The position numbers and the translations under genes are program-made. 64,000 nucleotides of DNA from Devosia sp. FJ2-5-3. Lineage in GTDB: Bacteria > Pseudomonadota > Alphaproteobacteria > Rhizobiales > Devosiaceae. Each line of letters opens with the position of its first letter. Position 1 is the stretch's first letter. The stretch spans positions 3,568,501 through 3,632,500 of the forward strand of contig NZ_CP104007.1 in NCBI RefSeq assembly GCF_029201545.1. Direction: 5' to 3'. The notes under the pieces were generated by a model. The model ran no database searches. It was not told where the DNA came from and saw only the letters and a list, made by a program, of their open reading frames with translations. Shown piece after piece: positions 8,766 to 34,551 of this stretch.

Positions 8766-8803
8766 TGAAGTTCCGGTAGCAGGAGGGAGAGGGGGAAGAG
8801 GGT

Positions 8804-11622: not shown

Positions 11623-11623
11623 G

Positions 11624-12589: not shown

Positions 12590-12633
12590 GGCCGTCTGGC
12601 TCGCTTGTTTGAACGGTGTTGCAGGTTGACTGC

Positions 12634-12661
12634 CAGGTTCCGGGCCTGGGCCCGGAACCTG
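12634..12661 (-). terminator. Stem-loop between binding-protein and permease genes
   Basis: Perfect 12-bp stem (CAGGTTCCGGGC / GCCCGGAACCTG) with a 4-nt loop and no following T-run. Such hairpins after a binding-protein gene usually stabilise the upstream mRNA or partly terminate it, giving excess binding protein over membrane components. Confidence 0.65.
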
Positions 12662-12679
12662 CGGATTAGTCGGCGGCGC

Positions 12680-14254: not shown

Positions 14255-14273
14255 GAAATTCCTCCGTGACATC

Positions 14274-15671: not shown

Positions 15672-16067
15672 TTGAAGCGTGCACTCGCAACTGCGGCCGT
15701 AGTGGCCAGCCTCGCTCTTGCCGGCATGTCCGTCGCTCCAACCATGGCCTTCCAGGCCGCGGAACCGGCCGACGCTGCCGCAGCTGAAATCGACCCGGCC
15801 GTAATGGAACTGGGTGGCACCGTGTACGCCGACAATTGTGCGGCTTGCCACGGTGTGGATGGCATGGCTGAACGCAAGTTCGCTGGCAGCCAGAACATCA
15901 AGCACATCGTGCTGATCGGCTCGCAGGTTTACCACGGCGGTGAATTCATGCCGAAGTTCGACTTCCTTACGGATGAAGAAGCGGCAGCAGTCGCCACCTA
16001 TATCCGTAATTCCTGGGGCAATACCCTGGGTCCGGTCACTCCCGAAGAAATCGGCATTTTCCGCTAG
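15672..16067 (+). CDS. Small periplasmic c-type cytochrome, probable electron acceptor of the quinoprotein dehydrogenases
   Basis: 131 residues, TTG start with GGAGGA 6 bases upstream. Signal peptide MKRALATAAVVASLALAG ending near TMAFQA. One haem motif, CAACH at residues 56-60, and a probable distal Met93 in GGEFMPKFDF. This is a class I cytochrome c of the cytochrome cL/XoxG functional type, which takes electrons from PQQ enzymes in the periplasm. First gene of the locus, separated from the dehydrogenases by a hairpin. The assignment as partner rests on position. Confidence 0.88.
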   Translation: MKRALATAAVVASLALAGMSVAPTMAFQAAEPADAAAAEIDPAVMELGGTVYADNCAACHGVDGMAERKFAGSQNIKHIVLIGSQVYHGGEFMPKFDFLTDEEAAAVATYIRNSWGNTLGPVTPEEIGIFR

Positions 16068-16088
16068 GATTTCCTAGCCGCAACTGGA

Positions 16089-16108
16089 CCGCCCGGCATG
16101 CCGGGCGG
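16089..16108 (+). terminator. GC-rich hairpin after the cytochrome gene
   Basis: Self-complementary CCGCCCGGCATGCCGGGCGG followed by CCCTTCTCTT. No long T-run, so a partial terminator or mRNA-stabilising element between cytochrome and dehydrogenase genes. Confidence 0.55.
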
Positions 16109-16276
16109 GCCCTTCTCTTCCGCATCGAGCATTTTCACAGCTCTCTGTTCGAGACGCTGACTGATGGCCTGCGCGCTCTATTTCGTGCACGCCTTCAGGC
16201 TGTTGGGGGGCGTGCGTCTTGAGGGGCGCTCCAGTCAAAGTAATTTCATAACTAAAAATCTTCACGGAGGTAACAA

Positions 16277-18046
16277 ATGAAGATGAATGCGCTATCAGCG
16301 CTGCTGCTGGGGACGGCTCTCGCCCTGACTTCGCTGCCAGTCGCCGCACAGTCGGACCTGCTGGAGAACATGTCTCCCGTGACCGACGAAATGATCCAGA
16401 ACCCAGATCCCGGTTCCTGGCTCAGCTGGCGTCGTACGCTGGACAACCAGGGCTTCAGCCCGCTTGACCAGATCAACAAGGACAATGTGAGCGACCTGCA
16501 GGTCGTCTGGTCCCGTGGCATGACCGAAGGCTTCCAGGAAGCCGCTCCGCTCGTCCATGACGGCGTGATGTTCCTGCCCCACCCGCGCGATATCATCCAG
16601 GCCCTCGACGCCACCACCGGCGACCTGCTCTGGGAATACAAGCGCGAAGTCCCGGCCAACGCGCCGATGATCATCACCACGCGCAACATCGCGATCTGGG
16701 GCGACCTGCTCGTCTTCAGCTCCAAGGACAACTATCTCGTTGCCCTCAATGCCAAGACCGGCCAGCTGGCCTGGGAAACGCAGCTGCGTGACGAAAACGC
16801 CTGGGCATGGTCCACGCCTGGCCCGATCATCGTCAACGGCAAGGCAATTTCGGGTCGCTCCTGCGCCCAGCAGCCGAGCGGCGACACCCCCGTCGGTGGC
16901 CCCGAGACCTGCTACCTCACCGCTCACGACATGAAGACCGGTGAAGAGCTGTGGCGCTTCCACACCCTGCCCCATGGCGACATGGCCGGCAGCGAAAGCT
17001 GGAACGGCGTCGACGACAGCCTGCGTCACCACGTCGGCAGCTGGATTTCGCCCTCGTACGATCCGGAACTGAACCTGGTCTACTTCGGCACGTCCGTGAC
17101 CTCGCCCTACTCGAAGTTCTACTTCGCCAACTTCGACAGCGTCGAAGAGCTGGAAGAGCAGGAATTCCTGTACCAGACCTCGACCCTGGCCCTCGACGCC
17201 GACACCGGCGAGCTCAAGTGGTACCAGCAGCACATCCGCGACCATTGGGACCTCGACCATCCGTTCGAGCGTATTCTCGTGGACACCGCGATTGCGCCGA
17301 ACGCTGACGAAGTGCGTTGGATCAATCCGGCCGTCACTCCTGGCGAAGAGCGTCGCGTCGTGACCGGTATCCCCGGCAAGACCGGCATCTTCTACTCGAT
17401 GGACGCTGCAACCGGCGAGTTCCTGTGGGCTCGTGAGACGACCTATCAGAACGTCATCTCCGATATCGACACGACCACTGGCCGCGCCACGCACCCGCTC
17501 GACATGATCCCGACCGAAATCGGTCAGTCGCTGCTGGTCTGCCCGTCTGACGCCGGTGGCAAGCGCTGGTTCACCAGTGCCTACAGCCCGCTGACCAATG
17601 CGATCTACTCGCCGCTGGCGAACTTCTGCATGCAGTCGGTGACCCTGCCGAACGACATCCGTCTGTCGCCGGACGTCCTCGCACCGGGCACCAGCGTTGT
17701 TGGCCGCCTGAACGCCATCAGCGTCGAGACCGGCGAGGAACTCTGGAGCCTCGACCAGGAAGACTTCACCACGTCGCTGCTCGCGACCCAGGGTGGCCTG
17801 CTGTTCGGTGGCGACACCAACCGTCGCTTCCGTGCCTATGACCAGACCAATGGCGAAGTACTGTTCGAAACGATCGTTCCGTCCGCCGTTGGTGGCGTTC
17901 CGATCACCTATGAAGTCGGCGATCGTCAGTACGTGGCTGTGCCTGTCGGCTCTTGGCTCGATATGACGCCCTATGTCGACAACACTCCGCGTGACATCCC
18001 GATGGGCGGCAACGCCATCGTCGTCTACGCCCTGCCACAGAAGTAA
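16277..18046 (+). CDS. PQQ-dependent alcohol dehydrogenase-like quinoprotein, copy 1
   Basis: 589 residues. Start fixed by GGAGGT at 16266-16271, five bases before ATG. Signal peptide ends near PVAAQ. The eight-bladed propeller shows repeated tryptophan-docking motifs (ALDATTGDLLWEYKRE, ALNAKTGQLAWETQL, DMKTGEELWRF, SVETGEELWSLDQ). The probable catalytic Asp325 is in HWDLDHPFER; Asp327 at +2 is the position that marks lanthanide enzymes (XoxF, PedH). The vicinal Cys pair of methanol dehydrogenases is absent; Cys196 and Cys212 flank the corresponding loop (GGPETC). The metal-ligand Asn of the GNP motif appears replaced (GTSVTSPYSKF). Oxidises an alcohol in the periplasm; substrate unknown. Devosia strains are known for quinoproteins oxidising the mycotoxin deoxynivalenol, one candidate substrate class. 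Confidence 0.9.
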   Translation: MKMNALSALLLGTALALTSLPVAAQSDLLENMSPVTDEMIQNPDPGSWLSWRRTLDNQGFSPLDQINKDNVSDLQVVWSRGMTEGFQEAAPLVHDGVMFLPHPRDIIQALDATTGDLLWEYKREVPANAPMIITTRNIAIWGDLLVFSSKDNYLVALNAKTGQLAWETQLRDENAWAWSTPGPIIVNGKAISGRSCAQQPSGDTPVGGPETCYLTAHDMKTGEELWRFHTLPHGDMAGSESWNGVDDSLRHHVGSWISPSYDPELNLVYFGTSVTSPYSKFYFANFDSVEELEEQEFLYQTSTLALDADTGELKWYQQHIRDHWDLDHPFERILVDTAIAPNADEVRWINPAVTPGEERRVVTGIPGKTGIFYSMDAATGEFLWARETTYQNVISDIDTTTGRATHPLDMIPTEIGQSLLVCPSDAGGKRWFTSAYSPLTNAIYSPLANFCMQSVTLPNDIRLSPDVLAPGTSVVGRLNAISVETGEELWSLDQEDFTTSLLATQGGLLFGGDTNRRFRAYDQTNGEVLFETIVPSAVGGVPITYEVGDRQYVAVPVGSWLDMTPYVDNTPRDIPMGGNAIVVYALPQK

Positions 18047-18066
18047 TCGGCCGGTTTGAAAGTGAG

Positions 18067-18096
18067 GGATGCGACCCAAGGGCCGCATCCTTTTTT
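18067..18096 (+). terminator. Intrinsic terminator between the two dehydrogenase genes
   Basis: GGATGCG / CGCATCC stem around ACCCAAGGGC, followed by six T. A classical intrinsic terminator or attenuator, implying the second copy is either partly attenuated or has its own promoter in the 76 nt that follow. Confidence 0.75.
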
Positions 18097-18172
18097 GGGT
18101 TGGTGCCGGAAGCGTTGGGACAATCGCGCCCGTACCACGACTACCGAATTTCACATCTTCGAGGAGGTAATG

Positions 18173-19942
18173 TTGAAGGTGAAAGCACTATCTGCGCTTT
18201 TGATCGGGACGTCTCTTGTCCTGACAGCTCTGCCCGCGCTGGCTCAGTCGGACCTGCTGGAGAACATGTCTCCGGTGACCGACGAAATGATCCAGAATCC
18301 CGATCCGGGTTCCTGGCTCAGCTACCGCCGTACGCTGGACAACCAGGGCTTCAGCCCGCTTGACCAGATCACCAAGGAAAATGTTGGCGACCTGCAGGTC
18401 GTCTGGTCCCGCGGCATGACCGAAGGCTACCAGGAAGGTACGCCGCTGGTTCATGACGGCGTCATGTTCGTGCCGCATCCGCGCGACATCATCCAGGCCC
18501 TCGACGCGACCAATGGCGACCTGCTCTGGGAATACAAGCGCGAGCTTCCCGACAACGTCCCGATGATCGTTGCCACCCGCAACATGGCTATCTGGGACAA
18601 TCTGATCGTCTTCAGCTCCAAGGACAACTATCTCGTTGCCCTCGACGCCAAGACCGGTCAGCTCGCCTGGGAAACCCAGCTCCGCGACCAGGACAGCTGG
18701 GCATGGTCCACGCCTGGCCCGATCATCGTCAACGGCAAGGCCATCTCCGGTCGCTCCTGCGCCCAGCAGCCGAGCGGTGACACCCCCGTCGGTGGCCCCG
18801 AGACCTGTTTCCTCACCGCTCACGACATGAAGACCGGCGAAGAAATGTGGCGTTTCCACACGCTTCCGCACGGCGACATGGCCGGCAGCGAAACCTGGAA
18901 CGGCGTCGACGACAGCCTGCGTCACCACGTCGGCAGCTGGATTTCGCCCGCTTACGATCCCGAGCTGAACCTCGTGTACTTCGGCACTTCGGTGACCTCG
19001 CCGTACTCGAAGTTCTACTTCGCGAACTTCGACAGCGTCGAAGATCTGGATGCGCAGGAATTCCTGTACCAGACCTCGACCCTGGCCATCGACGCCGATA
19101 CCGGTGAGCTCAAGTGGTACCAGCAGCATCTGCGCGACCACTGGGACCTCGACCATCCGTTCGAACGTGTTCTCGTCAACACCGCGATCGCACCGAACGC
19201 CGATGAAGTCCGCTGGATCAACCCAAACGTCACCCCGGGTGAAGAGCGTCGCGTCGTGACCGGTATCCCCGGCAAGACCGGTATCTTCTACTCGATGGAC
19301 GCTGCGACCGGCGAATTCCTCTGGGCACGTGAAACCGTCTACCAGAACGTCATCTCCGATATCGACACTGCAACCGGCCGTGCGAGCATCCCACTGGACA
19401 TGATCCCGACCGAAATCGGTCAGTCCATGCTGGTCTGCCCGTCTGCGTCGGGCGGCCGTCGCTGGTTCACCAGCACCTACAGCCCGCTGACCAACGCGAT
19501 CTACACGCCGTTGTCCAACAACTGCATGCAGTCCGTGACCCTGCCGAACGACATACGTCTGTCGCCTCCGGTCATGGCACCGGGCGCCACCAATATCGGC
19601 ACCATCAGCGCGATCAGCGTTGAAACCGGCGAAGAACTCTGGAGCCTCGACCAGGAAGACTTCACCACCTCGCTGCTGTCCACCCAGGGTGGCCTGCTGT
19701 TCGGTGGCGACACCAACCGTCGCTTCCGTGCCTTTGACCAGGACAATGGCGACGTGCTGTTCGAAGCGATCGTTCCGTCTTCGGTCGGTGGCGTGCCGAT
19801 TTCCTACGAAGTCGACGGACGTCAGTACATTGCCGTCCAGGTTGGTTCCTGGCTCGACATTGCCCCCTTCGTGGCGCTTACGCCCCGCGAAGTGGTGACA
19901 GGCGGCAACGCAGTGGTCGTTTTCGCCCTTCCGCAGAAATAA
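18173..19942 (+). CDS. PQQ-dependent alcohol dehydrogenase-like quinoprotein, copy 2
   Basis: 589 residues from a TTG at 18173. GAGGAGG at 18161-18167 is five bases before this TTG but only two before the ATG at 18170; the TTG start also makes the protein the same length as copy 1 and aligns MKVKALSALL with MKMNALSALL. Residue numbers then match: Asp325 and Asp327 in HWDLDHPFER. The paralogue is very similar to copy 1 along its whole length, with scattered substitutions (for example LSYRR for LSWRR, FEAIVPSSVG for FETIVPSAVG), so this is a tandem duplication that has begun to diverge. Same expected role: periplasmic alcohol oxidation with PQQ. Confidence 0.9.
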   Translation: MKVKALSALLIGTSLVLTALPALAQSDLLENMSPVTDEMIQNPDPGSWLSYRRTLDNQGFSPLDQITKENVGDLQVVWSRGMTEGYQEGTPLVHDGVMFVPHPRDIIQALDATNGDLLWEYKRELPDNVPMIVATRNMAIWDNLIVFSSKDNYLVALDAKTGQLAWETQLRDQDSWAWSTPGPIIVNGKAISGRSCAQQPSGDTPVGGPETCFLTAHDMKTGEEMWRFHTLPHGDMAGSETWNGVDDSLRHHVGSWISPAYDPELNLVYFGTSVTSPYSKFYFANFDSVEDLDAQEFLYQTSTLAIDADTGELKWYQQHLRDHWDLDHPFERVLVNTAIAPNADEVRWINPNVTPGEERRVVTGIPGKTGIFYSMDAATGEFLWARETVYQNVISDIDTATGRASIPLDMIPTEIGQSMLVCPSASGGRRWFTSTYSPLTNAIYTPLSNNCMQSVTLPNDIRLSPPVMAPGATNIGTISAISVETGEELWSLDQEDFTTSLLSTQGGLLFGGDTNRRFRAFDQDNGDVLFEAIVPSSVGGVPISYEVDGRQYIAVQVGSWLDIAPFVALTPREVVTGGNAVVVFALPQK

Positions 19943-19975
19943 TCTGCTGATACGCGCCTGTTAAAGGCTTGATCG

Positions 19976-19999
19976 GGAGGTGGCCCAAGGGCCGCTTCC
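19976..19999 (+). terminator. Strong hairpin after dehydrogenase copy 2
   Basis: 11-bp stem (GGAGGTGGCCC / GGGCCGCTTCC) with a 2-nt AA loop, then CTCTTT. It resembles the element after copy 1 (shared CCCAAGGGCCGC core), so the spacer was probably duplicated with the gene. Likely limits read-through into the downstream maturation genes. Confidence 0.6.
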
Positions 20000-20016
20000 C
20001 TCTTTGGAGGAAAAAC

Positions 20017-20853
20017 ATGTTCGTACGCAGCCTAACCGGTGCCCTGATCCTGTCAGTGGCTCTTCTCGGATCTGTCCTCCCCTCCTCTGCCCAATTCCGT
20101 CGTGTCGTTCCCGACAACATGGTGAACACCGCGGTCTACGCGGGCGGAAATATCCGCTTTTGCATAAATCCCGTCAGTTCGCTGGCACAATTCGACCGTG
20201 CCCTGGGCCAGACCCTGGCCGACATGCTGCTGGTTCCGGCCGAGTTCTACGAACTCAAATATGCCGTCGCGCCTGCGCCCTGGGGTTATGATCTTGCCCT
20301 CGGGGAAGAAGATCTGTTCATCCAGCTCAGCGAGAACTGCGACGCGGTACTGGGCTTTCCCATGCCGTTCATGGACCTGACCTACTCCTGGCTGACGACG
20401 ACGTCGCCCTATTACACGCCACGCTTTGCGCTTGCCTTTGCCAAGGACGCCCCGCCGGCACTCGATCAATTGCCCGAAGGTTCTCAGTTCGGCAGCCGCG
20501 TCGGCACGCTTTCGGACATGCAGGTGCGCGCCTATGCAAGGAGCTCGGCCAACAAGCTCAAGCGCCGGGTCTATGCATCCAATGTCAGCCTCATTCGCGC
20601 CCTCGCATCCGGCGACCTGCTGGCCGCAGTGGTCTGGGAGCCTGCCGTGGCCATCGCCGCGCAGACCGAGCCGGGCGCTGCCGATATCCAGATCGTGACG
20701 CCGCCATTCGGTGTCGAGCCGCAGCCCTTTGCCATCGCGCTGCCGTCCAACCAGACCTATCTGCGCGAAATGCTGGATACTGCGATCAACCAATTGCGCG
20801 CGAGCGAGGAGTTTTCCGCCCTCCTGGCTGAGTTCGAACTCCCCGAGGAATGA
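20017..20853 (+). CDS. Family-3-like periplasmic binding protein, XoxJ/MxaJ-like
   Basis: 278 residues; the ATG at 20017 is chosen because GGAGG lies six bases upstream, giving signal peptide MFVRSLTGALILSVALLGS. The fold is that of periplasmic solute-binding proteins (NIRFCINPVSSLAQFDRALG near the N-terminus, VGTLSDMQVRAYA and VWEPAVAI in the second lobe). In methylotroph clusters a protein of this type (MxaJ/XoxJ) follows the dehydrogenase and cytochrome and is thought to help activate the apo-dehydrogenase. Position directly after two quinoproteins supports that role. No ABC gene is immediately attached to it. Confidence 0.75.
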   Translation: MFVRSLTGALILSVALLGSVLPSSAQFRRVVPDNMVNTAVYAGGNIRFCINPVSSLAQFDRALGQTLADMLLVPAEFYELKYAVAPAPWGYDLALGEEDLFIQLSENCDAVLGFPMPFMDLTYSWLTTTSPYYTPRFALAFAKDAPPALDQLPEGSQFGSRVGTLSDMQVRAYARSSANKLKRRVYASNVSLIRALASGDLLAAVVWEPAVAIAAQTEPGAADIQIVTPPFGVEPQPFAIALPSNQTYLREMLDTAINQLRASEEFSALLAEFELPEE

Positions 20854-20929
20854 GCATGGGCCTTCTGACCGCCGCCCTGCCTCACTCTAGTCCAGCCGCC
20901 AAAAGCATCAGGGCGCCAAAGGATTTTGC

Positions 20930-21544
20930 GTGTTCGATCTAACCTTTCCGCAGGTCCTGTCGCGCCTTATCGCAGCGACCATCGTGTTGACGATCCTCGG
21001 GGTTTCGTTCGCCGCCGCCGCGCGCCTGCTCGGCGACAAGGGTGTTGGTTATGAAGGCAGGTTGAAGCCGAATCCCATCCTTCATGTGGATCTCTTCGCC
21101 ATCGTATCCAGCGTCTTCGGACGCGTAGGCTGGATCAAGCCACTGCGCATCGACCCGGCGGAATGCCGGGGTGGGCGATGGGCCCCGGCCATTGCCGCAC
21201 TCGCGGCAGCGGTGGTGACGCTGGTGGCCAGCAAGCTCGCCCTGCTGCTCCTGCCCTATGTGGCAAGCTACTGGCCCGCCAGCAGCGCCGGCTTCGTCGA
21301 CTGGACCATTCGCGAGATCGCGCAGATCGCGGCCTGGACACTGGCATTCAATGTCGTCCCGCTCCCACCCTTCCTGGCCGGCTATGCGCTGCAGGGCGTC
21401 GCTCCCCAGGCGCATGCCTTTTTGGTCAAACGGCACTTCCTGATCTCGATCGCAATTACCGCACTTGTCGCCGTGTTTCACAAGAGCCTGCCGCAAACGC
21501 CGTTCAACGCCCTGGCGACGCTGTTTTTGACCGGTGCGATGTGA
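20930..21544 (+). CDS. Degenerate site-2-protease-like (M50) membrane protein
   Basis: 204 residues, GTG start with AAAGGA 7 bases upstream. About four membrane segments. The middle reads GRLKPNPILHVDLFAIV, then VGWIKPLRIDP, the hallmark of bacterial M50B site-2 proteases (GRLTLNP-HxDP ... FGWAKPVPVNP). But the HExxH position reads VSFAAA and the second motif, usually NLLPIPPLDGG, reads NVVPLPPFLAGY, so the metal-binding His, Glu, His and Asp are all lost. Expected to be proteolytically dead; perhaps a membrane scaffold or chaperone for the dehydrogenase. Overlaps the next gene at ATGTGA. The assignment is by motif recognition only. Confidence 0.6.
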   Translation: MFDLTFPQVLSRLIAATIVLTILGVSFAAAARLLGDKGVGYEGRLKPNPILHVDLFAIVSSVFGRVGWIKPLRIDPAECRGGRWAPAIAALAAAVVTLVASKLALLLLPYVASYWPASSAGFVDWTIREIAQIAAWTLAFNVVPLPPFLAGYALQGVAPQAHAFLVKRHFLISIAITALVAVFHKSLPQTPFNALATLFLTGAM

Positions 21545-22929
21545 CCAATCTGGAGGTCACCTACGCCTCGATCCTGGCGCCGCTCAGCGTCGTTGCGAGA
21601 CGGCGCAGTATTCGCAATGTCATCCATGCCGCGCTGGCCGGCGCTGTCGCGGCGTGTGCCACCTATCTCATAGTGCTCATGGCGGCGCGCATGGGGTTTT
21701 TTGCCGTCTCTCCGGCTCTCCCAACGCTGATTGTCGGCGGCGTGACCGTCGCGGCCTGGCTGCTGATCACCGAAAGCCTGCGCCCATCGCCGCTTGCCGA
21801 AGCCTTCCATCTGGACAAGGCGGGCGGACTGGAAGAGGGATTTGGCACGGCGGTCGAATTGGCGCGCGCTTCCGCGCCGGTCGACGGACCGGTGGTCGCG
21901 AAGTTCATCAAAATGATCGAGGCGCGTCTGGGCGCCCTCCCCGATGCCGGGATCGTGACGGTTTTCACCACGGGCTTCTGGGCTGGTCTCGTTGCGCTGG
22001 CCCTGCTGGCTGGTGCCGTCGTCTCCGTCCAACGATTGCCTGCGCCCATGATCGTGGCGGCGCCGGACGCCAGTGATCAGCAGGAGATCGCGGAGATGGC
22101 CACGATCGAAAGCATCGCCGAAATGCTGGCCACGGATGCCGAGCTGCGTGACGATGCCCTGCTTGAGGCGATTGCCCAGACCCTTGCCGACAAGATCGTC
22201 GAAGCGGCGGATGGCCCCCTCGACGAGGAGATGGCCCGCCAGATCAACGATCTTCTCGACCAGGCCTCTGCCAGTTATGGCGAGAAGGCGCCCAGCTGGC
22301 TCGGTTCGACCGAGGGTTCTCGGCTACTCGAACTGGACGAAGCGCTCGCGGCGATGGACCCGGCTGATGCGCCGGGCGCGCAACCACCTCTGGAGCTGGC
22401 AGTCGACCCCTATTATGTGCCGCCCGAAGAGCGATTTACATCCAGTGGCGGGGACAACGGAATGGCGCTGGATGCCAGCGAAGGCTCCGGCGAGACGGAA
22501 CTGACCGCTGCCGATCCGGAGGCCTCGGGCAATCTCGAGGGCCTCACTCTCGGGCAGAACCCACAAGCCATGACTGACGAAGAGATATCGGCAATGGGGG
22601 CCACCCCTGTCGGCGCCGCACTGGATTCGGGACGCGGCGTCTCTCACGCGGCAGGCCTCGGCGAGGAAGATTTCCGCGCTGACAATGAATTTGCCCGGCT
22701 GGGTTTCGAGCCCACGGAAGACATGCTGCTCAGTGCAGAACCGCAGGCAGAGGGCGCACGCATTCGTATCGAGATCGTGCCGGACGCAAACCTCACCAAT
22801 GTCGCCGGCGCCGCCACCGGCATTGGCGGACAGGCCGGAACAGGGTCGACCGAGCCGGTTGACCGCGAGTTCATTCCCCTTTCGGCACGCAGTGTCGCCG
22901 CGCGCTACTTTGAACGGACCGCACAATGA
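21541..22929 (+). CDS. Unrecognised membrane protein with long acidic C-terminal region
   Basis: 462 residues from a GTG at 21541 overlapping the previous stop (ATGTGA); the open frame extends upstream only as a shadow of that gene. Three predicted membrane helices: about residues 26-48, 57-77 and 147-167. The rest is an acidic, Ala/Glu-rich soluble part (helical region EIAEMATIESIAEMLATD, then low-complexity) ending in IPLSARSVAARYF, a tail seen in membrane proteins that accompany MoxR/VWA genes. The stop overlaps the VWA gene start (ATGA). No family recognised; by position an accessory component of the MoxR-VWA complex. Confidence 0.7.
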   Translation: MTNLEVTYASILAPLSVVARRRSIRNVIHAALAGAVAACATYLIVLMAARMGFFAVSPALPTLIVGGVTVAAWLLITESLRPSPLAEAFHLDKAGGLEEGFGTAVELARASAPVDGPVVAKFIKMIEARLGALPDAGIVTVFTTGFWAGLVALALLAGAVVSVQRLPAPMIVAAPDASDQQEIAEMATIESIAEMLATDAELRDDALLEAIAQTLADKIVEAADGPLDEEMARQINDLLDQASASYGEKAPSWLGSTEGSRLLELDEALAAMDPADAPGAQPPLELAVDPYYVPPEERFTSSGGDNGMALDASEGSGETELTAADPEASGNLEGLTLGQNPQAMTDEEISAMGATPVGAALDSGRGVSHAAGLGEEDFRADNEFARLGFEPTEDMLLSAEPQAEGARIRIEIVPDANLTNVAGAATGIGGQAGTGSTEPVDREFIPLSARSVAARYFERTAQ

Positions 22930-27113: not shown

Positions 27114-28120
27114 CAGCATCACAGCCGCAGCTTGACGCTGCAATTGCCGACCTCGAGCGGCTGAGGGAAACGCTGAAAGCGGCACGAACTGCTGTTGGCA
27201 GCGCCGTTGTGGGCCAGGAGAGTGTCGTCGACCTGATGCTCATCGCCATGATGGCGGGCGGGCATGTGCTGCTTGAAGGTCCGCCGGGCGTCGGCAAGAC
27301 ACTCCTCGTCCGCACCCTGGCCACGGTCGCAGGGCTGAGCTTTGCGCGCGTACAGTTCACGCCCGACCTCATGCCGGCCGACATCACGGGGGCATCCGTG
27401 CTGGTGCCCAATGCGGATGGACGCGCGCATCTCGAGTTCCGCAAGGGCCCGATCTTCTCCCAGCTTCTGCTTGCCGACGAGATCAACCGCGCCACCCCGC
27501 GCACCCAGTCCGCATTGCTCGAGGCGATGCAGGAGGGCACGATTTCGGCCGCGGGCGCCACGATGGAACTGCCGAAGCCATTCTTTGTGCTGGCAACGCA
27601 AAACCCGATCGAGATGGAAGGGACCTATACGCTTCCAGAGGCGCAGATCGACCGCTTCCTGTTCCGCATCGACGTGGCCTATCCAAGCGAGGATGTGCTG
27701 ACGCGCATTCTGACGGCCACCACCGGCGCCGACCACGCCAAGGTCGAGCAGGCAATCACGCCGGAGGAATTGCTGACGCTGCAATTGCACACCCGCACGG
27801 TGCCCACGGCGCTGACCCTGCAGCAGGCCATTGCGCGCTTCTGTATCGCGACGCAGCCGAAGGGCGCGTCTGGCGACAGGGACGTGGCCAAATATGTCCG
27901 CTTCGGTGTCAGCCCGCGCGGCGCGCAGGCGCTCACCGTGGCAGGCAAGGCCCACGCCCTGCTGTCCGGACGCAACCATGTTTCCGTGGCCGATCTTCGC
28001 GCCGTGCTGCTGCCGGTCATGCGCCATCGCGTGCAGCTCAATTTCGAAGGTCGGGCCGCAAACATCGACATCGATGCGCTGCTGCTGCGGGTCTTCGACC
28101 AGACCGTCGGAAAGCTCTGA
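27110..28120 (+). CDS. MoxR-family AAA+ ATPase
   Basis: 336 residues from the ATG at 27110, overlapping the preceding stop (ATGA) with AAGGA upstream. Walker A GPPGVGKT, Walker B LLLADEINRA, sensor-1 ATQNPIE and the MoxR motif GTYTLPEAQIDRFLF are all present. MoxR proteins work as chaperones with VWA partners, and MxaR/MoxR is the founding example, required for active methanol dehydrogenase. Flanked by the VWA giant and a DUF58 protein, as in mxaR-mxaS. Very secure family call; the client is inferred to be the two quinoproteins. Confidence 0.93.
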   Translation: MTASQPQLDAAIADLERLRETLKAARTAVGSAVVGQESVVDLMLIAMMAGGHVLLEGPPGVGKTLLVRTLATVAGLSFARVQFTPDLMPADITGASVLVPNADGRAHLEFRKGPIFSQLLLADEINRATPRTQSALLEAMQEGTISAAGATMELPKPFFVLATQNPIEMEGTYTLPEAQIDRFLFRIDVAYPSEDVLTRILTATTGADHAKVEQAITPEELLTLQLHTRTVPTALTLQQAIARFCIATQPKGASGDRDVAKYVRFGVSPRGAQALTVAGKAHALLSGRNHVSVADLRAVLLPVMRHRVQLNFEGRAANIDIDALLLRVFDQTVGKL

Positions 28121-28121
28121 C

Positions 28122-28997
28122 ATGCGACCGCCCGCCCCGCTGCTTGAACGCCTGTCCCGATCGAGGATGCTGCCGGCTTCCGCGCAGCCTTCCGTCGGCA
28201 TGGGGGAAAGGCTGTCACGGCAGAAGGGCGCGGGCATGGAGTTTTTGGACTTCCGCCCCTATCAGGCCGGCGACGACACCCGCAATCTCGACCCCTATCT
28301 CTACGCCCGAACCGGCGAATTCGTGGTGCGCGAATATGCGCGCAGCCAGCAATTGCCGGTGACCATCGCGCTCGATCTCTCGGCCTCGATGCTGTCGGAC
28401 CCCAGTGGGAAATTCGAGCGCGCCAAGCAGATCGCGCAATTGTTCGGCTTCATTGCGCTCGCCAGCGGCGATCGTGTGCAGCTGGCCGTGACGGAAGCCG
28501 ACAAGACCCTCTTGTCGCCACGCTGGCACGGCGCGGCCCGGGCCGACTACATGTTTGACTGGGTAGACAAGCGCGAGGCCCGCAATGAGGGCAACTTCAT
28601 CGACACGCTGCGCGCCCTGCCCCAGCATCTGCCGTCCCGAGGCCTCGTCATCGCCGTCAGCGACTGGTGGGATGATGATTTCGAGCCTGTGCTCAACATG
28701 CTGCGCGCGCTGGACCAGGAAGTCATCGCCATACAGGTTCTCAGCCCGCACGAGATTGACCCTTCGGGCATGGATCAGGGTATCGTGACCCTTGAGGATG
28801 CCGAAACCGGCCAGGAGATTGAACTGTCGATAGATGCACAATTGCTCGACCAGTACCGTGCCGTGTTCGCCGAGCGACAGGACCGGCTACACGGACTGTT
28901 CACTGCCAGACACTGGCATTTGCTGACCGTTTCCACCCAAGATGACCTTGGCCAGCTGTTCACCCACACGCTGCGCGCCAAAGGAGTTCTGTCATGA
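28122..28997 (+). CDS. DUF58 protein (MxaS-like)
   Basis: 291 residues from the ATG at 28122, one base after the moxR stop. The DUF58 signature is clear: GMEFLDFRPYQAGDDTRNLD, then VREYARSQQLPVTIALDLSASM, a VWA-like region with a DLSAS MIDAS-type motif. No membrane helix is seen. Partner of MoxR ATPases; equals MxaS in methanol dehydrogenase clusters. Ends at an ATGA overlap with the ABC ATPase, so the maturation and transport genes are one transcription unit. Confidence 0.9.
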   Translation: MRPPAPLLERLSRSRMLPASAQPSVGMGERLSRQKGAGMEFLDFRPYQAGDDTRNLDPYLYARTGEFVVREYARSQQLPVTIALDLSASMLSDPSGKFERAKQIAQLFGFIALASGDRVQLAVTEADKTLLSPRWHGAARADYMFDWVDKREARNEGNFIDTLRALPQHLPSRGLVIAVSDWWDDDFEPVLNMLRALDQEVIAIQVLSPHEIDPSGMDQGIVTLEDAETGQEIELSIDAQLLDQYRAVFAERQDRLHGLFTARHWHLLTVSTQDDLGQLFTHTLRAKGVLS

Positions 28998-29956
28998 GCG
29001 ACTCCGCCAACTCGCCGGCCATTCTGGTCGAAGGCGTATCCAAGCGTTTCGGCCGCGTGCTGGCGCTCGACGAAGTTTCACTGTCGGTGCCGCAGGGACA
29101 GATGTTCGCCCTGCTCGGCCCCAATGGCGCCGGCAAGACGACGCTCATCGACATTCTCTGTACCATCCAGAAGCCGGACAGTGGCCGTGCCGAAGTGGCT
29201 GGCATCGATGTGGCCAAGCACCCGCTGAAGGTGCGCCACCATCTCGGCGTCGTATTCCAGGAAGCAACCCTCGACACGCGCCTGTCCGTCGAAGAGAACC
29301 TCGATTTCCATGGTCTTGTCTATCAGATGAGCCGCGCCGACCGCCGCCGCCGCATCGACGAGATGCTGGCGCTGGTCGAGCTCTCGGACTGGCGGGACGC
29401 TTTGGTCAAGACGCTTTCGGCCGGCATGCGGCGCCGGCTCGAGATTGCCCGCGGGCTCATGCACAGTCCCCGCATTCTGTTCCTCGATGAGCCGACAGTC
29501 GGCCTCGACGCCCAGTCCCGCGCGAAAATCTGGTCCTATCTGGATACATTGCGCAAGAGCGAGGACCTGACGATCGTCGTGACGACCCACTACATCGAGG
29601 AAGTGGACGCCTGCGACACTATCTGCATCATCGACCATGGAAAGATTCTGGCGCATGGTACGCCGGACGCGCTCAAGCAGGCCCATGCCGAGCCGCTCCT
29701 GCGCGTCGGCCCGCGAACGCCACAAGCCCACGCGGCCCTCATGGAGCGGTTCACCGGCACGGTTCAGGCCGCCGACGGGCAATTGGTGATCCGCTCGAGC
29801 GAAATCACCGTCGACGCCATTTTGGAGGAATTCGGCAACCAGCTCCGGCAGGTTACCGTCGACCAACCAAGCCTTGAAAGCGTTTTCCTGACCCTGACGG
29901 GCCGAGACTTGCGCGAGGCCCGCGCCACCCCGGCGAAAAAGCGGGGACGCGGCTGA
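28994..29956 (+). CDS. ABC-2-type exporter ATPase
   Basis: 320 residues, AAGGAG seven bases before ATG. Walker A GPNGAGKTT, signature LSAGMRRRLEIARGL, Walker B RILFLDEPTVGLD, switch His in TTHYIEE. The C-terminal extension (SSEITVDAILEEFG ... SLESVFLTLTG) is the DrrA/NodI kind. Its membrane partner is the ABC-2 permease at 32653, separated by three genes of a different importer. Similar ABC-2 pairs sit near PQQ-alcohol dehydrogenase genes in pseudomonads (ped clusters). Substrate unknown. Confidence 0.9.
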   Translation: MSDSANSPAILVEGVSKRFGRVLALDEVSLSVPQGQMFALLGPNGAGKTTLIDILCTIQKPDSGRAEVAGIDVAKHPLKVRHHLGVVFQEATLDTRLSVEENLDFHGLVYQMSRADRRRRIDEMLALVELSDWRDALVKTLSAGMRRRLEIARGLMHSPRILFLDEPTVGLDAQSRAKIWSYLDTLRKSEDLTIVVTTHYIEEVDACDTICIIDHGKILAHGTPDALKQAHAEPLLRVGPRTPQAHAALMERFTGTVQAADGQLVIRSSEITVDAILEEFGNQLRQVTVDQPSLESVFLTLTGRDLREARATPAKKRGRG

Positions 29957-29957
29957 C

Positions 29958-30740
29958 ATGGCCGGCTTCTCGATGACAGCGCGGGATGGCACCGAGCCCA
30001 TTTGGCTCATCGCCCTGACACGTCTGGGCTTTCTGGCCCTGTTGATCCTGCTCTGGTGGATTGCATCCATCAATGTGGCACGAAACCTCATCCCGTCGCC
30101 GATGGCCACGCTGGCCGCTGCCGGCAAATTGCTGGAAGAGGGGCGCTTGCAGAAGGGGCTGATGGAGTCGCTGACCATCTATCTCTCCGGCTTTGGCCTC
30201 GCCATCGCCGTCGCCATACCACTCGGCGTGATAATGGGCGCCTTTGGCCTCTTTGGCCGGACGATCGAAATTTTCGTTTACGCGCTCTCGGCTACGCCGC
30301 GTGTTGCCTTCATCCCGCTCATCATCGTGCTGCTGGGGCTCGGACTGCAGGCGAAGGTGTTCATCGTCTTCCTCGGCGCGGTCATGCCTGTCCTGCTCAA
30401 CACCTACGCCGGTGTCCGACAGGCCGATCCCGAGCTGATCGAAATGGGCCGTTCCGTCGGCGCCGGCCGGTTTCGCATTTTCACGCGCATCGTCCTCCCG
30501 GGGGCCGTGCCTTATGTGATCACAGGGCTTCGGCTGGGCGCCACGATTGGGCTCATCAATACAGTTGTGGCCGAACTCTACACCGCCGTCGGCGGCCTCG
30601 GAGGCCTTCTGGCCATCTACGGCAACACATTCAGAATGGCGGAATATTTCGTCATCGTTCTTTCCCTCGCGGCTATCGGCGTCGTTGTTACCGAGACCCT
30701 GAGATTCGTCGAATTGCGCCTCGCGAGATGGCGGCGCTAA
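29958..30740 (+). CDS. ABC importer permease (SsuC/TauC/NrtB type)
   Basis: 260 residues with about six membrane helices and the EAA loop EMGRSVGAGRFRIFTRIVLPGAVP. The family imports taurine, nitrate, sulphonates, thiamine precursors or aromatic acids. It starts one base past the ATPase stop. It pairs with the binding protein and ATPase that follow. Because it interrupts the ABC-2 exporter genes, the two transporters are co-transcribed. Confidence 0.9.
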   Translation: MAGFSMTARDGTEPIWLIALTRLGFLALLILLWWIASINVARNLIPSPMATLAAAGKLLEEGRLQKGLMESLTIYLSGFGLAIAVAIPLGVIMGAFGLFGRTIEIFVYALSATPRVAFIPLIIVLLGLGLQAKVFIVFLGAVMPVLLNTYAGVRQADPELIEMGRSVGAGRFRIFTRIVLPGAVPYVITGLRLGATIGLINTVVAELYTAVGGLGGLLAIYGNTFRMAEYFVIVLSLAAIGVVVTETLRFVELRLARWRR

Positions 30741-30756
30741 TTAGGAGAAGATTGTC

Positions 30757-31788
30757 ATGTTGAAATCGCTTTTGGCGTCGCTCGGCGGCGGTATTGCCGT
30801 AATGACCCTGATGACCGGTGCGAGCCTGGCCCAGTCCGACGCGCCGTTCCGGCTTATCGTGACCCATCTCGAGGCCCCGCTGGTGCCCAATTCGGTCATG
30901 GATCTGGCCGTCGAGCTCGGCTATTTCGAGGCCGAGGGCGTCAATGTCGAGCTGGTCCGCGTGCAGCAGACCCCGTCGGCCATCGCGGCGCTGCAGTCCG
31001 GCGAAGGCGAAATGGCCAATATCGGCGTCGACGCGCTGCTGCAGGTCATCCACAATGGCGCCACCGACTTCCGCGCCGTGACCTCGCCCAACAAGTCCCT
31101 GCCCTTCCTCATCGCCTCCAAGGAAGACATCGCAACACCGGCAGATCTCAAGGGCCGCAGCTTTGGCGTCGGCCGCGTCGGAAGCCTTGACCACTCGCTC
31201 TCGAGCAAGGTGCTTTCGAGCCTTGGCCTCTCGCTCGATGATTCCGAAGTGATCGCCATCGGCCAGCCGGACGTCCGTGGCCAGGCCCTGCTGGCCGGCC
31301 AGATCGACGCGACAACCATTTCCATCGGCGTCTGGAGCGAACTGCCCGACACCGAAGGCCTGCATGTCCTCGTCGACCAGGACGCCTATTATGAAGGCGC
31401 GCCGGTGGTTAACAAGGTCAATGCCGTGTCCGGTGACGTCCTTGCAAACCGCCCCGAGGACGTCGAGGCCGTTATCCGTGCTCTGACCAAGCTGTCGCGC
31501 GAATTTGCGGCCGATCCGCAGAAATGGGTCGACGCCATGGCCAAGGCCCGCCCCGATGTCGAGCTCGACACGCTTGAACTGCTCTCGAAGGCTTTCGTGG
31601 GCAGCTGGAGCGTCAACGGCGGCATGAGCGCATCCGAGCTGAACTTCACCGCCGACTGGCTCTACGACACCCCGGATTTCGAAGGGATGGAGAAGCTCCC
31701 GCTCGACCAGTGGGTGAACTTCGCCCCCGTCGATGCCGTGCTGGCCGAAATCGGCACCGAAGATGGCATGGACCCTGCTGATCGATGA
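30757..31788 (+). CDS. ABC importer substrate-binding protein (NMT1/SsuA type)
   Basis: 343 residues, AGGAGAAG before ATG. Signal peptide ends near ASLAQ. NMT1/THI5-like pattern: LAVELGYFEAEGVNVELV, GEMANIGVDALLQ, LKGRSFGVGRVGS. Binds a small anionic or metal-complexed ligand for the adjacent permease. In this locus candidate ligands are the dehydrogenase substrate, PQQ or a lanthanide chelate; the sequence does not decide between them. Overlaps the next ATPase by 4 bp. Confidence 0.87.
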   Translation: MLKSLLASLGGGIAVMTLMTGASLAQSDAPFRLIVTHLEAPLVPNSVMDLAVELGYFEAEGVNVELVRVQQTPSAIAALQSGEGEMANIGVDALLQVIHNGATDFRAVTSPNKSLPFLIASKEDIATPADLKGRSFGVGRVGSLDHSLSSKVLSSLGLSLDDSEVIAIGQPDVRGQALLAGQIDATTISIGVWSELPDTEGLHVLVDQDAYYEGAPVVNKVNAVSGDVLANRPEDVEAVIRALTKLSREFAADPQKWVDAMAKARPDVELDTLELLSKAFVGSWSVNGGMSASELNFTADWLYDTPDFEGMEKLPLDQWVNFAPVDAVLAEIGTEDGMDPADR

Positions 31789-32642
31789 GTGACAGCTCTT
31801 CCCCCGGAACCCCCCGGGGCCCAACGGACATGCAAGGGCAAAAGCCCCTGCTCAGCTTCGACAAGGTCGAAAAGCGCTTTGCCCGCCCCGACGGCTCAGT
31901 CAGCACGGCGGTGGGCGGGGTGTCCCTCGACATTGCCGAGCACGAGTTCGTGGCCCTGATCGGACCTTCCGGTTGTGGGAAGACCACGCTTTTGCGCCTC
32001 GCCAATGGCTTGATCGAGCCCGATAAGGGCTCGGTCCTCATCGGTGGAAAGACACCCCGTCCCGGCCCCGATATGGGATTTGTCTTCCAGGCGTTCCGCC
32101 TCATTCCCTGGGCCAGTGTCCAGGACAATGTTGCCTTTGCGCTCGAAAGCCTGCCCCTGTCGAAGGCGGAGCGGGCCGAACGCGCGCTGCACTATCTCGA
32201 CCTGGTTGGCCTTTCCCGCTCGGCAAAATCCTGGCCATCGCAGCTTTCGGGCGGCATGAAGCAGCGCGTCGCTCTCGCCCGGGCTCTCGCCAGCGAGCCG
32301 CGCGTGCTGCTCATGGACGAACCCTTCGCCAGCCTTGACGCGCAGACGCGCGAACTGATGCAGGGCGAACTACTGTCCATCTGGCGGCAGCGCACGCCCA
32401 CCGTGATGTTCGTGACGCACAGTGTCGACGAAGCCCTGGTGCTGGCCGATCGCGTCGTGGTCATGGGTGCCGGAAAAATTCTTGAAACGCTTGAAGTCGA
32501 CCTGCCACGCCCTCGCAATTCTGCGCAGATGCGTTCGGACGGCCGCTTTATCGAAATGCGCAATTACCTGTGGAACCGTATCCGCGACCTGGTCCTCAGC
32601 GACCCGGCATCGGAATTTTACGGCCGCAATCTCAGTGAATAG
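31785..32642 (+). CDS. ABC importer ATPase (SsuB/TauB type)
   Basis: 285 residues. Walker A GPSGCGKTT, Q-loop VFQAFRLIPWASV, signature LSGGMKQRVALARAL, Walker B VLLMDEPFASLD and switch VTHSVDEAL all intact. Energises the permease at 29958 with the binding protein at 30757. ATGA overlap with the preceding gene. Confidence 0.93.
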   Translation: MSDSSSPGTPRGPTDMQGQKPLLSFDKVEKRFARPDGSVSTAVGGVSLDIAEHEFVALIGPSGCGKTTLLRLANGLIEPDKGSVLIGGKTPRPGPDMGFVFQAFRLIPWASVQDNVAFALESLPLSKAERAERALHYLDLVGLSRSAKSWPSQLSGGMKQRVALARALASEPRVLLMDEPFASLDAQTRELMQGELLSIWRQRTPTVMFVTHSVDEALVLADRVVVMGAGKILETLEVDLPRPRNSAQMRSDGRFIEMRNYLWNRIRDLVLSDPASEFYGRNLSE

Positions 32643-32652
32643 GAAAAGCCAG

Positions 32653-33465
32653 ATGGGTAGCGTTCTGGGGCAGTTGGGCGGCGTCTACGCGATCTGGCTG
32701 CGAGAGGTGAAACGGGCCCTGCGCGACAAGGGGCAACTCATTGGCGGCGTCAGCCGACCACTGCTTTGGGTGCTCATCCTCGGGATCGGGCTCAACCCCT
32801 ATTTCCGGGGCGAGGTCTATGGCGAAGTGCGGTTCGTCGTGCCCTACACCTATATCCAGTTCATCTTCCCCGCCGTCGTCGTGCTCAACATCCTTTATAC
32901 CTCCGTCCAGTCGGCGGTTTCGCTCATCTGGGACCGCGAGTTTGGCTTCATGCGTGAAGTCATGGTGGCCCCGATCTCCAGGAACCTCGTCCTCCTGGGC
33001 AAGGTGCTGGGCGGGGCAACAACCGCCGTCATCCACGGCTGCATGGTGCTGGCCGTAGCCCATTTCGTGGGCATCGGGTTGACGCTGGAAACTATAATCA
33101 AGGCCTTGGGCCTCATGTTTCTCCTGTCTTTCGGGCTCACGGCGTTCGGCATCATCATCGCCAATTATGTGCGCGGCTTTGAAGGCTTTGGCGTCTTTTC
33201 CAACGCCGTGATCCTGCCGCTCTATTTTACCGCCAGCTCGGTGTTTCCGCTTGATCCGGCGCTGACTCGCGCCCAGACGCTCGTGACCTACCCGGAGTGG
33301 CTGGTCGTGATCGTCGAGCACAATCCCATGACCTACGCGGTCGATGCGATGCGGGGCATTCTGATCCGGTTCAACCAGTTTGATCCCGCGATGGGCTTTG
33401 CCGTGGTGGCGGGCATGGCCGCGAGCCTCTTTGCGCTGGCCATGTGGGAATTCAGGAAGATCTGA
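32653..33465 (+). CDS. ABC-2-type permease
   Basis: 270 residues from the ATG at 32653 (an open frame extends upstream through the ATPase gene as a shadow). Six helices and the ABC-2 pattern: YAIWLREVKRALRDKGQL at the N-terminus, WDREFGFMREVMVAPISR, and HNPMTYAVDAMRG near the C-terminus. Works with the DrrA-like ATPase at 28994. Ends in TGATG overlap with the next gene. Confidence 0.9.
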   Translation: MGSVLGQLGGVYAIWLREVKRALRDKGQLIGGVSRPLLWVLILGIGLNPYFRGEVYGEVRFVVPYTYIQFIFPAVVVLNILYTSVQSAVSLIWDREFGFMREVMVAPISRNLVLLGKVLGGATTAVIHGCMVLAVAHFVGIGLTLETIIKALGLMFLLSFGLTAFGIIIANYVRGFEGFGVFSNAVILPLYFTASSVFPLDPALTRAQTLVTYPEWLVVIVEHNPMTYAVDAMRGILIRFNQFDPAMGFAVVAGMAASLFALAMWEFRKI

Positions 33466-34319
33466 TGGCCCGCAACGCCGCCTCTCGCCCAACCGAACGC
33501 AAACGCCACTGGATCTTCGACTTCGTCCCGCTGGCGACATGCTTTGCCCTGCTGATCGGCCTTGGTTTCCTGCCGCCCGATACGTCGAGCGCCGAGGTCA
33601 ACAGCACCGGTCGGCTCAGTGTCTGCATGCCCGCCAATTACCCGCCACTGGTGACCGGCAATGCCGAAGCTCCGGGCTTCGAGGTCGAACTGGTGCGCGA
33701 GATTGCCGATCGCCTCGGCTGGCGGCTGAATATCGTCACCAATGCCGCCATGGGCCGGGACTTCAATCCCCGCAATTGGCGCATCAACCGTGCCCAGTGC
33801 CAGATGCTGGCAGGCGGCATTGTGCTCAGCGCGACGACCCAGTCTTTCCTCGACACGACCCGCCCCCATCTCCAGACGGGTTGGGCGCTGATCACCGCCT
33901 CGGACCTCGACATTACCGCGCTCAAGGGGCCCGTGGGCTTTTATGCCGGCCTTACCGGACTCGATCGGATTGGCCTCGGCCAATATCTGCGCCAACTCGG
34001 ATTGAGTCCGAAAATCGTCAACTCCGCCAACGCATTGCGACAGGACCTCGAGAGGGGCGCCATCGAGGCGGGTGTGTCCGAAGGGCTTCTGGCCGCCTAT
34101 CTGGCCGATGACAACGACCTCACCGTCACCCTGCTCGACGCGCCGCTGGACCGGTTTCGCCTCGGTCTGGGTTTCTGGAAGGGTGACGTCACGCTGCAGC
34201 GCAAGGTCGAGGCAACGCTCGGAGCCATCTGGTCGGACGGCACGATGGCACAAATCGCCGAGCGCTATGGTCTCGACAGCGAATTCCTCTGCGACCCACA
34301 AGAGCAAACCTGCGCCTGA
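33465..34319 (+). CDS. Family-3 periplasmic binding protein with N-terminal anchor
   Basis: 284 residues, start at the ATG of TGATG. N-terminal segment WIFDFVPLATCFALLIGLGFL is a signal anchor or uncleaved signal peptide. The rest is SBP_bac_3: RLSVCMPANYPPLV, FEVELVREIADRLGW, GGIVLSATTQSFLDTT. It lacks the usual adjacent permease of amino-acid transporters, and like the XoxJ-like protein at 20017 may be a dehydrogenase activation factor or sensor rather than a transporter part. Last gene before the terminator. Confidence 0.8.
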   Translation: MARNAASRPTERKRHWIFDFVPLATCFALLIGLGFLPPDTSSAEVNSTGRLSVCMPANYPPLVTGNAEAPGFEVELVREIADRLGWRLNIVTNAAMGRDFNPRNWRINRAQCQMLAGGIVLSATTQSFLDTTRPHLQTGWALITASDLDITALKGPVGFYAGLTGLDRIGLGQYLRQLGLSPKIVNSANALRQDLERGAIEAGVSEGLLAAYLADDNDLTVTLLDAPLDRFRLGLGFWKGDVTLQRKVEATLGAIWSDGTMAQIAERYGLDSEFLCDPQEQTCA

Positions 34320-34400: not shown

Positions 34401-34477
34401 TGGTAGCGAAGCCCAGATTTGAACTGGGGACACACGGATTATGATTCCGCTGCTCTAACCAACTGAGCTACTCCGCC
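34401..34477 (-). tRNA. tRNA-Met (anticodon CAT), elongator type
   Basis: 77 nt including an encoded CCA. Acceptor GGCGGAG/CTTCGCT, D-arm GTAGCTCAGTTGGTTAGAGC, anticodon stem-loop GCGGA-ATCATAA-TCCGT with CAT at 34441-34443, T-loop GTTCAAATC. The GCGGAATCATAATCCG arm is that of elongator tRNA-Met in alphaproteobacteria rather than initiator or Ile2. Confidence 0.95.
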
Positions 34478-34551
34478 GCAAGTGGCGTCGGCCCTGAGCC
34501 GATGCGTGCTTTAATTAGGAGCGTGAGCCAAAGCTGTCAAGCGGGGTGGGG

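Follow-up and report, generated by a model that had tools for sequence, protein, structure and literature searches.

The stretch of DNA considered here (the window, 64,000 nucleotides) comes from Devosia sp. FJ2-5-3 (assembly GCF_029201545.1, contig NZ_CP104007.1, forward-strand positions 3,568,501 to 3,632,500), whose complete 4.19 Mb genome carries the handle G000 among the genomes that we compared. Window positions 15672-34319 hold an array of 15 genes, all on the plus strand. We read this locus as one that probably makes, activates and supports two periplasmic dehydrogenases that use pyrroloquinoline quinone (PQQ), and four of its genes, termed the cassette, as probably a separately evolved activation machine that serves quinoproteins of several lineages. 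The dehydrogenases are DHa (589 aa, 16277..18046; PF01011 E 1e-57), which has an N-terminal hydrophobic segment and the motif WDLDHP, and DHb (590 aa, 18170..19942; PF01011), which is 85% identical to DHa. The cassette encodes the 462-aa membrane protein p462 (21541..22929; all Pfam matches at E 0.07 or weaker), a giant VWA membrane protein of 1395 aa (22926..27113; PF13519 E 4e-21, with PF07584 and PF07090 just under cut-off), a MoxR AAA+ ATPase (27110..28120; PF07726 E 2e-59) and a VWA-like DUF58 protein with the motif DLSAS (28122..28997; PF01882 E 2e-29). Both parts of a MoxR-VWA activase are present, the MoxR ATPase and a VWA partner bearing a metal ion-dependent adhesion site, as judged by PF07726, PF01882 and PF13519 and by motifs in the sequences.

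The cassette adjoins a PQQ dehydrogenase gene in 18 of the 20 loci that can be judged from gene maps, all of them found with cassette or DUF58 queries (G000, G240, G241, G259, G154, G269, G209, G207, G250, G208, G202, G218, G158, G182, G346, G630:C18, G343 and G629). In one of these, G182, only p462- and VWA-like genes lie beside the dehydrogenase. A sequence-only reading of this DNA had held that a maturation block found mostly without quinoprotein genes would refute the proposed link; the survey found the block to be a conserved neighbor of PQQ dehydrogenases. A weak partial p462 match in G019 (E 8.7e-5, L071) with no cassette genes around it was dropped, and keeping it would give 18 of 21. 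G238 and G256:C321 were left out because their contigs are too short to judge. Three further DUF58 loci of the genus, L191, L193 and L194, were classed as generic MoxR operons and not as cassettes; no dehydrogenase appears in L191 or L193, and the contig of L194 spans 4 kb. Four loci retrieved through a dehydrogenase query (L141, L151, L163, L170) lie outside the count. The same set of genes is seen in further genomes in three arrangements, which goes beyond chance. It forms a single collinear operon in L054, L055, L057 and L058, two diverging operons in L190, and two converging operons in L059, L061, L063, L065, L067 and L068, where dehydrogenase, binding-protein-like SBPx and M50-like genes face the genes from p462 to the binding protein SBP3.

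Searched as a single sequence, p462 matched at least 12 of 75 genus genomes, G218 and G237 being among those overlooked, and 5 of 199 order genomes, of which one match was spurious; the window's own genome is counted in both figures. A p462 profile found at least 5 of 385 class genomes, own included, with at most 4 candidates scored per genome, and a scan of viral contigs found no p462 relative. DUF58 matches occur in 15 of the 75 genus genomes, and 12 of these have the match no more than about 8 kb from the dehydrogenase. Dehydrogenase matches at E <=0.001 occur in 71 of the 75, many of them distant. Among open-licence PMC papers, judged by title and the start of the abstract, none was found to report PQQ dehydrogenases accompanied by a MoxR cassette other than in mxa clusters.

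The array shares with mxaFJGI-RSACKLD, the cluster for Ca-dependent methanol dehydrogenase, the union of a PQQ dehydrogenase, an MxaJ-like protein, cytochrome c, MoxR, DUF58 and VWA in one array (12 mxaI loci were compared). It differs in its enzyme type, as had been proposed: mxaI is unmatched in G000 (PF02315, matched by 31 of 249 order genomes), and inspection of DHa and DHb found no vicinal cysteines (CC). It has one giant VWA protein, whereas mxa loci have separate proteins of about 340 aa. It has p462 where mxa has proteins that we take, by gene position, to be MxaA, MxaK and MxaD; in this one direction of comparison the p462 model matched none of the open reading frames (ORFs) shown in the 12 mxa loci, and the giant VWA model scored at most 25 bits there. 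The difference extends to MoxR and is thus sharper than had been claimed, since the array MoxR falls outside the MxaR clade. In a tree of 65 MoxR proteins (IQ-TREE), the 20 cassette MoxRs form one clade (99/96) that groups with 24 generic alphaproteobacterial MoxRs (100/99), with nine further generic rows outside the joint group. The 12 MoxRs from mxa loci fall far away, in a clade of their own (100/100). The tree was rooted at the midpoint, and the separation of the clades is independent of the root. Because the MoxR clades are distinct and the mxa loci show neither p462 nor the giant VWA protein, the cassette appears to have been recruited to quinoproteins separately from mxaRSACKLD, out of a generic alphaproteobacterial MoxR-DUF58 operon. 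The MoxR of L135, a gammaproteobacterial locus, is a very long branch among the generic MoxRs. Positions 868-3259 of that locus hold MoxR (243 bits) and a weak DUF58 match (33 bits) about 7 kb before a dehydrogenase, and p462 and VWA are not seen there.

The partners of the cassette comprise the window type, its relatives of about 40% identity with D-x-E at the metal site, XoxF-type enzymes (L185, best PDB match 7o6z/4mae, and L187 by adjacent tree position) and PedH-like enzymes (L188, best PDB match 6zcv, and L189 by adjacent tree position). The XoxF-type genes of L185 (12438-14330) and L187 (12084-14000) stand back to back with the cassette. The dehydrogenase tree (FastTree, 104 chosen rows, 25 cassette-linked) was built from ORFs of at least 500 aa and at least 150 bits with flanks judged long enough; shorter or near-identical rows were dropped, L135 was labelled as having no cassette, and some branches are long. 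On this tree the cassette label changes 10 times, and at least 9 changes are forced by well-supported branches. The suggestion of a general quinoprotein-activation system fits these data because the partners span several dehydrogenase lineages. A more specific proposal, to which we give slightly less than even chances, is that p462, VWA, MoxR and DUF58 form a portable trans-membrane activase for enzymes of any subfamily or metal, even XoxF-type. This activase would have originated a single time, in a generic MoxR operon and not from mxaRSACKLD, and MoxR would then have been adopted for quinoprotein activation at least twice.

The dehydrogenases of the window belong by their PDB matches to the sorbose-dehydrogenase/ADH-IIG-like type. 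The closest PDB relatives are 22vi, 4cvb and 4mh1 for DHa, with 4mh1 the best for DHb (E 4e-119), and the two score 308 and 311 bits against TIGR03075, below its 480-bit cut-off. DHa is 95.8% identical to the first and DHb 96.9% to the second enzyme of the tandem pair at L055 in genome G241. We take G241 as Devosia sp. SD17-2 and the pair as its 17DH1 and 17DH2; the identities were measured on the G241 genes and not on the deposited proteins. G241 has the tandem pair of 589 aa each, one dehydrogenase of 574 aa and a 604-aa ORF whose true start possibly lies further downstream, and the four dehydrogenases of SD17-2 are given as 589, 589, 586 and 574 aa in the available part of the published report (PMC10467086). 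Identity within the G241 pair was measured at 83.4%, and the same source gives 84.8% "similarity" for 17DH1 versus 17DH2. As described there, 17DH1 and 17DH2 turn deoxynivalenol, a fungal trichothecene toxin and a secondary alcohol, into 3-keto-deoxynivalenol, almost only with PQQ, and 17DH3 and 17DH4 do not convert it (PMC10467086, accessible sections). The enzymes were produced in E. coli BL21 and assayed with 100 µM PQQ, 1 mM CaCl2 and phenazine methosulfate (PMS), and the main text contains none of the terms "lanthan", "metal", "ABC transporter" and "MoxR" (PMC10467086). The earlier guess at secondary-alcohol substrates such as trichothecenes is well supported, because DHa and DHb are 96-97% identical to the pair taken as 17DH1/17DH2. 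DHa and DHb are accordingly predicted to be secondary-alcohol dehydrogenases that probably oxidize other alcohols too. The deoxynivalenol dehydrogenase DepA differs, being only about 37% similar to the 17DH1/17DH2 pair (PMC10467086, in the part available). The window enzymes are about 50% identical to acidobacterial ones (L094-L131) and about 40% to most other Devosia enzymes, and the nearness to acidobacterial enzymes suggests lateral transfer.

Both window enzymes carry D-x-D at the metal site (WDLDHP), which has been read as a lanthanide-binding motif (PMC11996626, as far as the source was available), and five PDB relatives carry D-x-E. A comparison of 52 dehydrogenases, of which 48 belong to the genus and 4 to two genomes of family f15, showed Glu two residues past the catalytic Asp in 9 of the 16 cassette-linked enzymes; the 36 others all have Asp there. 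The D-x-E enzymes divide into 8 of 12 cassette-linked ones in the genus and 1 of 4 in f15, and one of the 36 others (G218) was later found to be cassette-linked. The cassette could on this pattern be a loader restricted to calcium-type enzymes, in the way that mxaRSACKLD accompanies MxaF but not XoxF, and the SD17-2 pair does work with added Ca2+ (PMC10467086, available part). We regard such a restriction as rather improbable. The split of 9/16 against 0/36 is broken by further loci, and a calcium loader was kept only as a rival: D-x-D is found in the window pair, both enzymes of G240, the second of G158, both of G182, that of G218, those of L141, L151 and L170, and the XoxF- and PedH-type partners. 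In the opposite direction, L154, L164 and L168 have D-x-E enzymes, and their flanks of roughly 10 kb show none of the cassette genes; these loci belong to the best 80 of 431 confirmed with a dehydrogenase alignment. The D-x-E pattern is also largely that of one enzyme clade. The cassette would rather be indifferent to the type of metal, because the D-x-E pattern fails at other loci and D-x-D near-copies of the window enzymes are active with Ca2+.

Several observations weigh against the cassette as a quinoprotein activation machine. Two cassette loci lack a nearby dehydrogenase, L192 (G237, full cassette) and L186 (G630:C22), whose partial cassette has a PhoD-like gene close by. On the dehydrogenase tree the cassette label clusters, with 10 changes against a shuffled mean of 22.6, and some of the changes may be losses. 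Twelve genus genomes have full-length dehydrogenase relatives (>340 bits) and no DUF58 match (G210, G212, G214, G221, G225, G231, G232, G251, G253, G254, G261 and G262). Within the best 80 of 431, at least eight alphaproteobacterial loci (L148, L152, L153, L156, L159, L160, L161 and L162) carry SBPx, the M50-like gene, SBP3 and both ABC-2 genes, and their flanks of about 10 kb show none of the cassette genes. Cassette genes are likewise not seen in the acidobacterial loci, some on short contigs, where many enzymes share about 50% identity with DHb. The strongest counter-evidence is that the SD17-2 enzymes made in E. coli are active with added PQQ, Ca2+ and PMS (PMC10467086, in its accessible part), which speaks against an absolute need for the cassette. 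The control genomes that match DUF58 do not include E. coli; hence the cassette is not required for activity in vitro. Excess PQQ and Ca2+ may bypass the machine in the test tube. L192 carries its full cassette at 2883-10355 with no PQQ dehydrogenase in 20 kb, and its neighbors are an M20 peptidase, an FtsX-like permease and a glycosyltransferase.

Because core-bearing loci occur without cassette genes, the array consists of two layers: a broad core made up of an ABC-2 transporter, two binding proteins and often a dead site-2 protease, and the added cassette. The claim that the array is one system thus stands in part; adjacency of cassette and dehydrogenase is conserved, but the ABC-2/binding-protein core is also seen without the cassette and the NitT-like importer is optional. 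The ABC-2 pair consists of a PedB-like ATPase (28994..29956; TIGR03864 242 bits, cut-off 302; drrA 301.5, cut-off 312) and a PedC-like permease (32635..33465; PF01061 E 1e-22; TIGR03861 116 bits, cut-off 241; GTG start, ATG 32653 as alternative). SBP3, the second family-3 binding protein, follows (33444..34319; PF00497 E 6e-14; GTG start, ATG 33465 as alternative). The optional importer has a NitT/SsuC-like permease (29958..30740; PF00528), an NMT1/SsuA-like binding protein (30757..31788; PF09084 E 7e-18) and an ATPase (31785..32642; PF00005; SaoA/NrtCD-like, below cut-offs), and it was not seen in 20 kb of L058 and L069. The ped cluster of P. putida (PedA1A2BC, PedE/H, PedF, PedG) likewise joins a PQQ alcohol dehydrogenase, cytochrome c, a PedG-like protein and a PedBC-like ABC-2 pair. 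It differs in its dehydrogenase subfamily, in that no MoxR cassette is described for ped in the available part of the source, and in that scans of the array name no PedA2-like gene. With two ABC systems, three binding proteins and an ABC-2/SBP3 core in more loci than the cassette, the locus could mainly serve transport, taking up substrate or metal and exporting product, with the enzyme genes as an appendage, and PedA1A2BC of Pseudomonas is required for lanthanide use (PMC12997753, accessible part). Such a view leaves MoxR, DUF58, VWA and p462 unexplained, the importer is unseen in some full loci, and family scans of the array name no PedA2-like beta-propeller; we consider it very improbable.

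The generic alphaproteobacterial MoxR-DUF58-DUF4159 operons are the nearest relatives of the cassette, which shares with them the closest MoxR clade and a BatA-like part. Each of four such operons inspected has two large proteins. BatA and DUF4159 lie in the first of these in both operons scanned, and a GATase-like match under cut-off lies in the second in one of the two. They differ from the cassette in keeping the two large proteins separate, and the four loci show no dehydrogenase and no p462 match. The cassette might accordingly be a general envelope-stress or protein-quality (Bat-like) operon whose one tie to the dehydrogenase is a common transcription unit, given that its MoxR is sister to the generic MoxRs, that DUF58 is found in 3 of the 4 generic operons, and that L192 has a full cassette standing alone. 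This is unlikely in our view. The cassette repeatedly adjoins different dehydrogenase lineages in three gene orders, and it meets no housekeeping need in the genus, since DUF58 is unmatched in 60 of 75 genomes.

If the cassette is an activation machine, its action can be pictured from known MoxR systems. CoxD/CoxE and CbbQ/CbbO are activases made of a MoxR protein and a VWA protein. The targets of NorQ/NorD, CoxD/CoxE and CbbQ/CbbO face the cytoplasm or the membrane. The array shares with these three pairs a MoxR ATPase and a VWA partner, and it differs from them in having a periplasmic target and a membrane-bound VWA protein. NorQ is proposed to twist and stretch the NorD linker, and NorQD drives metal insertion, namely of iron (PMC13036017, available part). 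XoxJ and MxaJ are thought to hold the apo-enzyme open (PMC12997753, as far as available), and mxa accessory genes have been described as serving metal insertion (PMC9291206, in the part available). In the mechanism that we propose, PQQ would arrive from other bacteria and SBPx would keep the apo-enzyme open, as thought for XoxJ/MxaJ. A MoxR hexamer and the cytosolic VWA-like DUF58 protein would use ATP to move membrane arms formed by p462 and the giant BatA/VWA protein. The VWA domain of the latter, on the periplasmic side, would act on the SBPx-held apo-enzyme, allowing metal and PQQ to enter or reviving inactive enzyme. The NorQ/NorD principle would thereby be extended across a membrane. Cytochrome c would then accept the electrons, the PedBC-like ABC-2 pair and SBP3 may handle the metal or a related signal, and the NitT-like importer would be an optional add-on.

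The locus had been called self-contained, which proved wrong because G000 has no PqqE over cut-off (TIGR02109, best match 47.5 bits against a cut-off of 381). PqqE, the only pqq gene product searched for, scores over cut-off in 7 of 75 genus genomes, and neither G000 nor G241 is among them. SD17-2 is reported to lack PqqA-E and to be supplied with PQQ by Pseudomonas (PMC10467086, accessible sections). A role of the cassette in PQQ import was considered as well. Among 12 genomes with p462 only G269 has PqqE, yet this is no enrichment because 68 of the 75 genus genomes lack PqqE anyway, and the idea was rejected.

The single proteins were examined by profile and by structural model. The M50-like membrane protein (204 aa, 20930..21544) is a dead homologue of site-2 proteases; PF02163 is matched by 7 of 11 homologues and not by the window copy, and their profile matches mjS2P 3b4r (E 0.0033) over a C-terminal stretch in which another residue stands in for the Asp of PMDGG. 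All 11 homologues lack the Asp ligand as well as the Glu and the second His of HExxH, whose position was taken from the M50 consensus. With the zinc-site motif and its Asp ligand gone from all, the earlier term pseudo-protease is apt. The AF2 model has a pLDDT of 87.8 and found no match at E <0.001 in a fold search of the PDB, and the M50 assignment rests on sequence likeness. Its role is likely tied to the core, as a membrane scaffold or binding partner, because it also lies beside dehydrogenases where the cassette is unseen. Dead site-2 proteases stand beside alphaproteobacterial dehydrogenases even without a visible cassette in L152, L160 and L162, and L090 has no M50-like gene. The p462 model (mean pLDDT 62) has N-terminal helices and a long disordered tail, and no family matched more than one of the 12 p462 members. 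A likeness of p462 to DUF4175 proteins may exist. The giant VWA protein had been described as a double VWA protein. One intact VWA domain is present (residues 935-1102, DRSGS), together with a GATase-like segment, but the N-terminal half resembles BatA, gives no VWA match and has a degenerate motif, DTSAA. The array MoxR is the only strong PF07726 gene in G000, three other matches scoring below 23 bits. The DUF58 gene is likewise the only one found there, the other match being the VWA protein itself.

The genes claimed for the array are all present on the plus strand, with the families as named in profile scans of the window proteins. The array opens with cytochrome c (131 aa, 15672..16067; PF00034 E 5e-10), which has one CAACH and a TTG start after GGAGGA and is likely the electron acceptor of the dehydrogenases; all 14 loci inspected have a CxxCH ORF directly 5' of the dehydrogenase. 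SBPx (20017..20853; TIGR03871 E 2.4e-7, below cut-off) is a family-3-like periplasmic protein similar to MoxJ/XoxJ/PedG, and a homologue stands 3' of the dehydrogenase in most alphaproteobacterial loci mapped. Hydropathy indicates an N-terminal hydrophobic segment on DHa, DHb, cytochrome c and SBPx, membrane helices in the M50-like protein, p462, the VWA protein and the permeases, and none in MoxR and DUF58. The genes had been said to join mostly by 4-bp overlaps, which is too strong: of 14 junctions 5 are exact 4-bp overlaps, 2 are overlaps of 8 and 1 bp (starts as chosen), 2 are 1-bp gaps and one is 16 bp, and the first four gaps measure 74-209 bp. The G+C content is 63.1% in the array and 63.6% in the remaining window. 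Upstream, on the minus strand at 9622-14272, is an oligopeptide-type ABC transporter operon (SBP_bac_5, permeases, ATPase). Downstream, at 34401-37226 on the minus strand, come tRNA-Met and then uracil-DNA-glycosylase-like and radical-SAM-like proteins, the latter two recognized by eye.

What appears to be new is a separately evolved MoxR cassette paired with several kinds of quinoproteins, the toxin-oxidizing enzyme pair being already known. The activation of methanol dehydrogenase by the mxa accessory genes is, to our knowledge, not yet understood. Another MoxR machine, assembled independently and present in non-methylotrophs, would offer a cleaner system for learning what such machines do. 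It should be easy to work with, as the enzymes are soluble, a dye-coupled assay exists, an active baseline is available in vitro, and the host G000 has no other MoxR-DUF58 pair. The published toxin-oxidizing enzyme pair is now placed in a genetic setting, and the PqqE result supports the view that these bacteria depend on the PQQ of their neighbors.

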